From contig JAJZFS010000078.1 of the NCBI GenBank assembly GCA_021805245.1, positions 1-60,866 of the forward strand: a stretch of DNA of 60,866 nt. The letters run 5' to 3'. Shown piece by piece: positions 48,644 through 51,131 of the stretch (position 1 is the first letter of the stretch; the number at the start of each line of letters is the position of its first letter). A program made the translations under genes and the position numbers. The DNA comes from Pseudomonadota bacterium (GTDB lineage Bacteria > Pseudomonadota > Alphaproteobacteria > Micavibrionales > UBA2020). The notes under the pieces are model-generated. The model did not search any database. It was not told the DNA's origin and saw only the letters and a list, made by a program, of their open reading frames with translations.

Positions 48644-49093
48644 ATGTCCCTGATCACTTTGGCTATGCTTATCGCCCTGTCGCTGCTTTATATGACACGG
48701 TGGACGGTTAGAAAAGAGAATGACCCTTTGTTCAATCTGGTGGACAAATCGGACGGTTATCTCACTAAATTCGATGATTTTTTGAGGAAAACCATCCACT
48801 GCGATGCGCTGACGGCGTTCTTTATATATGCCATTGCGGCTGCGCTTTTCACGCTGCTGCTGCCGCTGGACCCTCAGGGTCTGCTCATCCGATTTTTCGC
48901 AAACGTGGTGGCCGCGTTGATGATATTGCCGTTCGTGGTCGAAAAGGCCGTTGTCAAATACAAGGATAAGGTAAATGCCGCCATCCTTCAGGAACTGGCG
49001 AACCTCGCCGCCTGGGTCGTGAGGAATGAGAAATATTTTACTTTCGTCGGCGCGGGCTTCGCCGTTCTGCTGTTCTTCGTCCTGTTTAGATAG
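48644..49093 (+). CDS. Hypothetical membrane protein
   Basis: 149 aa, about three hydrophobic segments; SD AAGAAGGA upstream. Confidence 0.65.
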   Translation: MSLITLAMLIALSLLYMTRWTVRKENDPLFNLVDKSDGYLTKFDDFLRKTIHCDALTAFFIYAIAAALFTLLLPLDPQGLLIRFFANVVAALMILPFVVEKAVVKYKDKVNAAILQELANLAAWVVRNEKYFTFVGAGFAVLLFFVLFR

Positions 49094-49110
49094 TGCGTTG
49101 CGCATAAAAA

Positions 49111-49226
49111 GCCGCTCCCTTTGACAGGGGGTATAGTGTAAGGGCAGAGAGTTCCGATTTTTGACCACACGCCCAAAGATTAAGAAAACAACCCTTACCT
49201 TCTCTGGCAGGGGCTGTTTTCTTAAT
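49111..49226. repeat. Left arm of imperfect inverted repeat flanking the CDF cassette
   Basis: GTGTAAGGGCAGAGAGTTCCG...CCCAAAGATTAAGAAAACAACCCTTACCTTCTCTGGCAGGGGCTGTTTTCTT aligns with the reverse complement of 50719-50835. Confidence 0.85.
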
Positions 49227-49231
49227 GATAA

Positions 49232-49333
49232 TATATCCAAACCCATCTTGTTGATATCAAGCATCATCCTGAAGCGCTTGATCAAGAGGCCACTGAAGAA
49301 CTGCTTGAAGTCATTCGCGCATATTTAAAGTAG
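49232..49333 (+). pseudogene. C-terminal remnant of a CsoR/RcnR/DmeR-type metal-responsive repressor
   Basis: Frame reads TAA TGA TAA | YIQTHLVDIKHHPEALDQEATEELLEVIRAYLK*, resembling the FrmR/RcnR C-terminus; no start codon. Confidence 0.7.
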
Positions 49334-49342
49334 GAGATTACT

Positions 49343-50641
49343 ATGACTGATATGGAACCCCAGCCTGAGGTAGAATTACCAATTTTCCCACAAATTCATA
49401 GTCATGCTTTCCTGGGTGAGAAGCACGAAGGCTCGGAACGTCGGACATGGTCGGTAATCTGGCTTTGCGGCATTATGATGGCCGCCGAGATCATTGGTGG
49501 AAAATTATTCGGGTCTTTGGCTTTGATTGCTGATGGCTTACATATGTCCACTCATGCGGGTGCATTGCTACTGGCGGCCTTGGCTTACACTTATGCGCGT
49601 AAACACGTTCACGATGATAATTATGTTTTCGGTACAGGAAAGGTTGGCGATCTTGCAGGATATACAAGTGCAATCATTCTGGCTACGATTGCCTTGCTGA
49701 TCGGCTATGAAGCTGTCATGAGGTTTTTGAACCCCGTTGTAATTCACTTTAGCGAAGCTATTCCAATTGCCGTTCTTGGCCTTGCCGTTAATGTTGGAAG
49801 CGCATGGCTCCTCAGTGCTGGCGGCGGACACCATCACCACGGTCATGGGCATCATCATGACGATGATCGCAGCCATGACCATCACGACGAGACGCGCCGT
49901 ATCGGCATTGATCAAGGAATGTTGATCCTTGAAATCTTTGAAGATGGTATACCACCGCACTTCAGGGTACGCACAGAAAATATGAGAGTGCAAGCCCAAG
50001 ACTTGGCAATCGAAACAGTGCGCGCGGATGGAAAACGTGAAATATTTACCTTTGTGGATAAGGGGGGGTACCTGGAATCCCGTACTGAAATTCCCGAGCC
50101 TCATGAGTTTTCGGCAAAAATACATCTTACAAGTGAGACGGGGTCTCAAGTTTATCAAACCGAGTTTGAAGAGCATAGCCACGGTGCAGAGGATGGACGT
50201 ATACATGCCGATCATAACATGCGTGCTGCTCTTGTTCATGTCATGGCTGATGCCGCTGTGTCTGTTCTGGTTATCATTGGACTGTGTCTAGCCTATTTCT
50301 TTGGCTGGCTTTGGATGGATCCGCTTGCGGGTATGGTGGGAGCATGCGTCATTGCCAGTTGGTCTTATGGCCTCATGAGAGACACATCTGGCATTCTGCT
50401 CGACCGAAACCCTGACCGGAACATGACTAAAAATATACGTGCAGTCATCGAGTCCGAGGGTGATCGATTGACCGACTTGCATTTGTGGCGGTTGGGGCCG
50501 GGGCATATGGGGGCTATTCTGTCGGTAGCGACGGCTACCCAAAAGTCTCCTGGTTACTTTAAAACGCGGCTTTCAGGTTTTCAGTCATTATCTCATGTGA
50601 CCGTTGAGGTAGTGACGATAGCTGAACCTTCTCTTGCCTAG
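49343..50641 (+). CDS. dmeF: CDF family divalent metal efflux transporter (DmeF-like) with His-rich loop and inserted domain
   Basis: IADGLHMSTHAGALLLAALAYTYARKH; HHHHGHGHHHDDDRSHDHHDE; DPLAGMVGACVIASWSYGLMRDTSGILLD. Confidence 0.85.
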   Translation: MTDMEPQPEVELPIFPQIHSHAFLGEKHEGSERRTWSVIWLCGIMMAAEIIGGKLFGSLALIADGLHMSTHAGALLLAALAYTYARKHVHDDNYVFGTGKVGDLAGYTSAIILATIALLIGYEAVMRFLNPVVIHFSEAIPIAVLGLAVNVGSAWLLSAGGGHHHHGHGHHHDDDRSHDHHDETRRIGIDQGMLILEIFEDGIPPHFRVRTENMRVQAQDLAIETVRADGKREIFTFVDKGGYLESRTEIPEPHEFSAKIHLTSETGSQVYQTEFEEHSHGAEDGRIHADHNMRAALVHVMADAAVSVLVIIGLCLAYFFGWLWMDPLAGMVGACVIASWSYGLMRDTSGILLDRNPDRNMTKNIRAVIESEGDRLTDLHLWRLGPGHMGAILSVATATQKSPGYFKTRLSGFQSLSHVTVEVVTIAEPSLA

Positions 50642-50718
50642 GGCGTATATCACGTTACACATCCTCTTATGTATGCGCATGTGAAAACCATATATTTTCA
50701 GCACTCTCATGTACATAT

Positions 50719-50835
50719 AAGAAGACAGCCCCTACCAGTGAAGGTAAGGGCTGTTTCTCAATCTTTGGGTGTACGGCCAGAAACCGGAACTCTCTGGCCT
50801 TACACTCTACCTCCACCCTTTGACAGGGGGCGGCC
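50719..50835. repeat. Right arm of imperfect inverted repeat flanking the CDF cassette
   Basis: Reverse complement reads GTGTAAGGCCAGAGAGTTCCGGTTTCTGGCCGTACACCCAAAGATTGAGAAACAGCCCTTACCTTCACTGGTAGGGGCTGTCTTCTT. Confidence 0.85.
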
Positions 50836-50861
50836 TTTTTGTCTTGAGCGCTCCGGGCTTT

Positions 50862-51131
50862 TTAGCCGCGCAGGCCGAGGCTGTCGATCAGCCCTTCATA
50901 GCGCTTCGGATCGACCGTCTTGATGTATTTCAGAAGGCTGCGGCGGTTGCTCACCATGGTGAGGAGGCCGCGGCGGCTGCCGAGATCTTTCTTGTGTGTT
51001 TTCATGTGCTCGGTCAGGTTCTTGATGCGGCCGGTCAGAATGGCGATCTGCACTTCCGGTGAACCTGTGTCCTTCGGCGTGGTCGCGTATTTCTTGATCA
51101 GCGCCTGCTTTTCTTTCTTCTCAATCGACAT
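50862..51131 (-). CDS. rpsO: 30S ribosomal protein S15
   Basis: [50 protein letters not shown]. Confidence 0.99.

Follow-up and report, generated by a model that had tools for sequence, protein, structure and literature searches.

Casposons are mobile elements whose enzyme is related to CRISPR Cas1, and they are proposed ancestors of the CRISPR adaptation machinery. Solo terminal inverted repeats (TIRs) and degenerate casposons that lack a casposase have reportedly been described in Methanosarcina mazei. A different class of mobile DNA, the group IIC introns, inserts at intrinsic terminator hairpins by RNA-based retrohoming next to the stem, and these introns have no TIRs and do not duplicate the hairpin core. 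Known features of casposons include TIRs, target-site duplications of ~15 bp, the occurrence of family 3 in bacteria and intergenic insertion (PMC4046053, PMC6614799, PMC9939771), and overlap between the TIR and the duplication is also a published casposon feature (PMC4046053). Among non-autonomous elements, MITEs and the Tn3-derived TIME elements are TIR-flanked and can form mosaics with passenger DNA (PMC4133298).

A dmeF locus between inverted repeats

The window, a 60,866-nucleotide stretch of an alphaproteobacterial genome (UBA2020), contains a dmeF gene flanked by two repeat arms, beside rpsO (Table 1). When the genome was searched against itself, the reverse complement of 50718-50839 aligned with 49105-49235 at 81% identity over ~120 nt (E = 1.4e-26), and a separate comparison recovered this match as ungapped pieces. 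The ~115-bp imperfect inverted repeats noted in the initial annotation are thus real, and each arm does carry its own hairpin, with the folding energies and z scores listed in Table 1. Its placing of the rpsO neighbour and of a CDF gene was also correct, and no transposase lies between the arms. The annotation had further assigned the sequence CCCTTTGACAGGGGG to both inverted arms. Two copies are indeed present, at 49117 and 50816, and the window has no others (0.10 expected at ≤2 mismatches), but they are direct repeats placed along the outer edges of the arms and therefore represent a target-site duplication that is not part of the inverted repeat. The duplication of the window element reads CCCTTTGACAGGGG(G), a maximum of 15 bp that fits the expected ~14-15 bp. 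A length of 14-15 bp suits all elements of this group, and the exact value is ambiguous because the GGGGG tip of the TIR matches the GGG of the stem. Conservation of the arms extends beyond the hairpin to the tips, and an Rfam search of the locus gave no match.

Table 1. Positions of the element, its cargo and its flanks in the window
Feature	Position	Strand	Details
Left neighbour	48644-49093		149-aa membrane-type ORF, convergent with rpsO
Left half of split host terminator	49106-49131	.	A-tract, left stem, loop, inner right stem
Left target-site duplication	49117-49131		Last 15 bp of left terminator half; overlaps GGGGG tip of TIR
Left TIR	49127-49226	+	Tip GGGGGTATAGTGTAAGG; covariance model match 1.7e-16
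Terminator-like hairpin in left TIR	49180-49226	+	A-tract, GC stem, T-tract; -21.6 kcal/mol, z -5.2; covariation over 24 arms
dmeR 3' remnant (RcnR/CsoR-type metal repressor)	49232-49333	+	~34 codons with stop, cut at TIR
dmeF, CDF-family Co(II)/Ni(II) exporter, 432 aa	49343-50641	+	NCBIfam NF033827 4.8e-141; Pfam Cation_efflux 1.9e-28
Terminator-like hairpin in right TIR	50716-50762	-	-27.7 kcal/mol, z -7.1; called terminator-like at 50754-50725
Right TIR	50718-50814	-	Tip partly mutated (GGAGGTAGAGTG); covariance model match 2.2e-15
Right target-site duplication	50816-50830		Exact direct repeat of 49117-49131
Right half of split host terminator	50816-50840	.	From empty-site reconstruction
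rpsO	50862-51131	-	Gene to right of element

Casposases in homologous elements of relatives

Homology searches in related genomes located the arms again, as inverted pairs enclosing 1.1 to 11.4 kb of DNA. In genomes G054 and G031, the large enclosed segments encode a Cas1, a family B DNA polymerase (with an HTH domain at its end in G054) and a small 115-aa protein whose HNH-like motifs were assigned by motif reading, with no Pfam or NCBIfam match. The Cas1 matches Pfam Cas_Cas1 (6.4e-40), and the closest solved structure, to which it was also aligned, is the M. mazei casposase 6opm (1.8e-22). Cas1-solo proteins are encoded outside CRISPR loci, between TIRs in G024, G031 and G054 and beside a TIR in G068. 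Across 145 genomes of the order, casposases were found in G024, G031, G054 (three stops in the matched stretch) and G068 (one stop), with fragments in G021 and G005; the polymerase accompanies the casposase in G031, G054 and G068, and G024 has none. Both the searches and a covariance model indicated that the window TIRs are homologous to the TIRs of casposase-bearing elements, where model matches weaker than ~E = 1e-9, which are mostly host terminators or decayed arms, were left out. An element in G005, from the same genus, has arms that are 81-83% identical to the left arm of the window and encloses a casposase fragment, and this links the repeat family of the window with a casposase. On these sequence comparisons, the assignment of the TIR family to casposons is strong. 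A MITE dependent on a DDE transposase was also considered, and no such transposase was noticed in the homologous elements read, which contain a casposase instead.

In a scan of genome contigs, relatives came from Micavibrio sp. and uncultured Alphaproteobacteria, with more distant casposases in Nitrosomonas and Sphingomonas. A maximally supported branch (100/100) sets these bacterial casposases apart both from the M. mazei enzyme and from the CRISPR Cas1 proteins that members of the same order encode, and the casposases of the present lineage group with those of Nitrosomonas and Sphingomonas in a tree built without the published family 3 type sequences. Among 387 sampled genomes of the class, the arm model had matches in the window's own genome alone, and casposases were absent from phage records and represented by one fragment in plasmid records. 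This unannotated casposase-like fragment lies on a conjugative Bradyrhizobium plasmid (NZ_CP147719.1:223040-223391; 50% identity, E 7e-23).

The elements of this lineage resemble the family 3 casposons of Nitrosomonas sp. AL212 and Henriciella marina in having Cas1-solo, PolB and HTH genes between TIRs, with a possible HNH-like gene, and a duplication near 15 bp that the TIR overlaps (PMC4046053), and they have the tip GGGGTATAG and TTTTGACCACAC in common with casposons of Nitrosomonas MAGs. In contrast to family 3 casposons, the window copy retains none of the casposon genes and has a metal exporter as its cargo. The missing casposase is a feature of the degenerate M. mazei casposons too, but the window element comprises an intact TIR pair around an open cargo gene, at a terminator and in a bacterium. 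It is non-autonomous and TIR-flanked like MITEs and TIME elements, which differ in relying on DDE transposases and making short duplications, whereas the source enzyme of the window element would be a Cas1-type casposase.

Terminators at the insertion sites and terminator-like hairpins in the element ends

The rpsO site is empty in three congeners (G002, G004 and G005), where an intact terminator lies after rpsO and leads directly to the convergent 149-aa gene; the cassette is absent. Empty sites were rebuilt from the elements by overlapping their direct repeats, which was possible for nine elements with both ends aligned; ends on different contigs (G002, G141 and G068) were paired via their common repeat, and G021 and G007 were added after a search for the repeat's second copy, giving a total of 11 sites. 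Ten of these are bidirectional rho-independent terminators in which the insertion occupies the same position, and the exception, G005, has one half-site and no hairpin. In the rebuilt target of G012, AAAAAAGCC[CCGGATAAAACCGGGG]CTTTTT, the repeat spans the inner stem and the loop. The rebuilt site of the window folds at -21.3/-22.6 kcal/mol, compared with -9.5 (left) and -13.8 kcal/mol for the split junctions, from which the T-tracts are lost. A strict terminator detector accepted 258 of 214,614 background positions (0.12%; P 7e-29 for 10/11), or 123 of 14,708 (0.84%; P 1.8e-20) outside long reading frames; the detector was set after the sites had been seen, so these P values are descriptive, and the gap is very large. 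The terminator bias of the insertions in this lineage is statistically strong. Most single arms with intact tips (C85 of the window's own genome, G028, G002:C211, G068:C261, G140 and G143) also adjoin half a terminator, as judged by eye.

Casposons beyond this set were also examined for terminator targets. For the Nitrosomonas casposons, including the MAG elements that were checked, tips were found and the flanks are not terminators, and the ends of the casposon at L140 do not lie in a terminator (by eye); for the Sphingomonas casposon, a search for the arm found none. Family 3 casposons have so far been published only as "intergenic", and a terminator target goes unmentioned in the portion of PMC4046053 examined. 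Among the screened papers that mention both casposons and terminators, none appeared from its title and abstract to report terminators as targets, and a search for casposons together with Micavibrio returned nothing. Insertion at terminators is a likeness to group IIC introns, from which the present lineage differs in having TIRs and a duplicated hairpin core rather than retrohoming.

This lineage appears, from the rebuilt sites, to use intrinsic terminators as its target. Its casposase could recognise the palindromic A-tract/GCCC...GGGC/T-tract of a terminator as double-stranded DNA, such that each active site would meet the same half-site on opposite strands. Alternatively, terminators might not be recognised as such, and the casposase might need only short A-tract plus GCCC half-sites, or selection might remove insertions made elsewhere. 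A AAAAAGCCC-like sequence is common to the half-sites, the hairpin-less G005 site retains one of them, and insertions into terminators spare coding sequence. However, selection against hits in coding sequence alone would scatter insertions over intergenic DNA, whereas 10 of the 11 fall within terminators, which make up 0.84% of intergenic positions, and always at the same place in the hairpin; we regard this explanation as possible, if rather doubtful. We tentatively suggest, at somewhat short of even odds, the broader reading that a lineage of Cas1-type integrases selects short palindromes, here intrinsic terminators, and duplicates their core. If true, this would mirror in nature the way in which Cas1-Cas2 integrates into CRISPR repeats, themselves palindromic, and duplicates them, and it would offer a testable account of how such repeats came to be targets of Cas1. 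Target choice by a Cas1-type integrase becomes directly testable in a lineage that has a defined symmetric target and open casposase frames in at least two genomes.

Terminator-like sequence is also found within the elements, where a GC hairpin between A- and T-tracts lies ~50 nt inside each tip. When 24 arms were aligned, 93% of cells paired and two-sided changes numbered 35; shuffles gave 13.9 and slid controls no more than 10. The loop has drifted, but the GC stem and its A/T-tract flanks are kept. At the right end of the G024 element the usual hairpin is gone and an unrelated terminator-like hairpin is present slightly further in. Each insertion thus splits one terminator and supplies two terminator-like hairpins. 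The TIR ends would thereby restore termination for both flanking genes, replacing the broken terminator, and insulate the cargo, and so insertion could be cheap for the host. The hairpin might instead act as DNA, possibly as a single-stranded hairpin, in casposon end recognition, excision or replication, its likeness to a terminator being incidental. Internal palindromes occur in some published casposon TIRs (PMC4046053), the 37-bp palindromic TIR of A. boonei is conserved beyond the needs of integration (PMC6614799), and a conserved DNA palindrome would likewise give covariation. The drifting loop with kept stem and tracts and the different terminator-like hairpin of G024 count against this, and we consider a purely end-recognition role unlikely; both roles could hold. 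Host terminators without TIR tips, for example L182:5267 (G005:C6:130267-130357), are very similar to the TIR hairpin, down to the CTCACTGG loop; they may be relics of arms, or the TIR hairpin may derive from them.

Cargo, probable derivation and decay of the window element

The sole gene of the window element is dmeF. Over its last 30 residues, the dmeR remnant aligns with the C-terminus of a repressor whose gene lies upstream of dmeF on a Rhodopseudomonas plasmid (score 82, compared with a best of 42 in 1000 shuffles), and the spacing between repressor and dmeF is 9 nt in both. As the remnant lies directly upstream of dmeF, the cargo is a dmeRF operon cut at the TIR; a Pfam search with the remnant, which is only 31 aa, gave no match. 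The congener G004 has a dmeF with 82% identity at another locus, without arms, and the comparison of the two genes (dN 0.11, dS about 2, near saturation) is consistent with purifying selection on the protein. The GC3 of dmeF is 0.45, against 0.66-0.71 in the two upstream genes. A promoter scan of dmeF gave one weak sigma-70-like match just upstream (CTGGCA-17-GATAAT, 49204-49232), with match counts no better than in shuffles. The predicted Co/Ni efflux may account for the retention of dmeF.

We estimate a probability of roughly 0.88 that 49127-50814 is a non-autonomous casposon inserted, with the dmeR 3' end and dmeF, into the rho-independent terminator that serves both rpsO and the convergent 149-aa gene. 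Insertion of the TIR-flanked segment and duplication of 14-15 bp of the hairpin core would be the work either of an autonomous casposon itself or of the casposase it supplied in trans. This derivation rests on TIR homology, the target-site duplication, the empty sites, the truncated dmeR and the absence of a casposase from the assembly, all read from sequence. Single arms do exist elsewhere, as at C85, and a resident dmeF with an independent solo TIR or mini-casposon on each side might mimic one element, but the direct repeat occurs at the outer edges only and rebuilds one intact terminator, and dmeF is absent from the site in congeners, which makes such a coincidence very improbable. The inner hairpin does resemble host terminators, to which the weak model matches belong, but ordinary REP-like or terminator repeats around an ancestral dmeF can be dismissed, since the 2.25-Mb genome has only three arms and no more long ones, the tips are conserved beyond the hairpin, a target-site duplication is present, and the cassette is missing from the site in three congeners.

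The initial annotation was right in proposing a cargo element that is non-autonomous, flanked by repeats and the carrier of a CDF exporter, and the duplication and empty sites it suggested looking for were both found, as was a recombinase, in the form of the casposase in homologous elements of relatives but not in the element's own assembly. The casposon type, the terminator target and the identity of CCCTTTGACAGGGGG as a target-site duplication go beyond that annotation.

In the window's own assembly (2.25 Mb, ~97% complete), neither a Cas1 casposase nor a casposon PolB was found, in the element or elsewhere, and the window element is accordingly classed as a non-autonomous derivative and an orphan copy. 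A trans-acting casposase was sought in the same assembly and none was found, so mobilisation in trans would have been a past event. The lack of a casposase and the mutated right tip suggest that the copy is probably immobile now. Together with its relatives it forms a series of decay, in which full elements with cas1 and polB (G031, G054 and G068) are followed by G024, with a casposase and cargo (glycosyltransferase and isochorismatase-like genes) but no full polB, then by elements with casposase fragments (G005 and G021) and by cargo-only elements, namely the window element, G012 (two unknown genes) and G007 (one unknown ORF). This series, like the terminator-like TIR hairpins, adds to the testability of the system, in which a casposon derivative would spread a metal-efflux gene.

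Several further observations concern individual copies. The third arm of the window's genome (C85:22018-22133) matches at 79% identity; it adjoins half a terminator (L009:4042-4140 = C85:22041-22137) between a 116-aa ORF and a 204-aa ORF of no recognised family, near eno, and neither a partner arm nor a second duplication copy was detected in the search. In the congener G003, a same-family arm without the G-tip (L048:6110-6210; G003:C46:20116-20205) adjoins an rpsO cut at ~codon 57, which points either to a second rpsO insertion followed by deletion or to an assembly fault. The G024 casposon (L042:2302-8571) has an open casposase frame and, in place of polB, retains only an HTH protein similar to the C-terminus of PolB from G054. 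The largest casposon, at 11.4 kb (G054, L041:2855-14086), encodes an OLD/PtuA-like AAA ATPase, a DUF4238 protein and a KAP-type NTPase, which are possibly defence genes.
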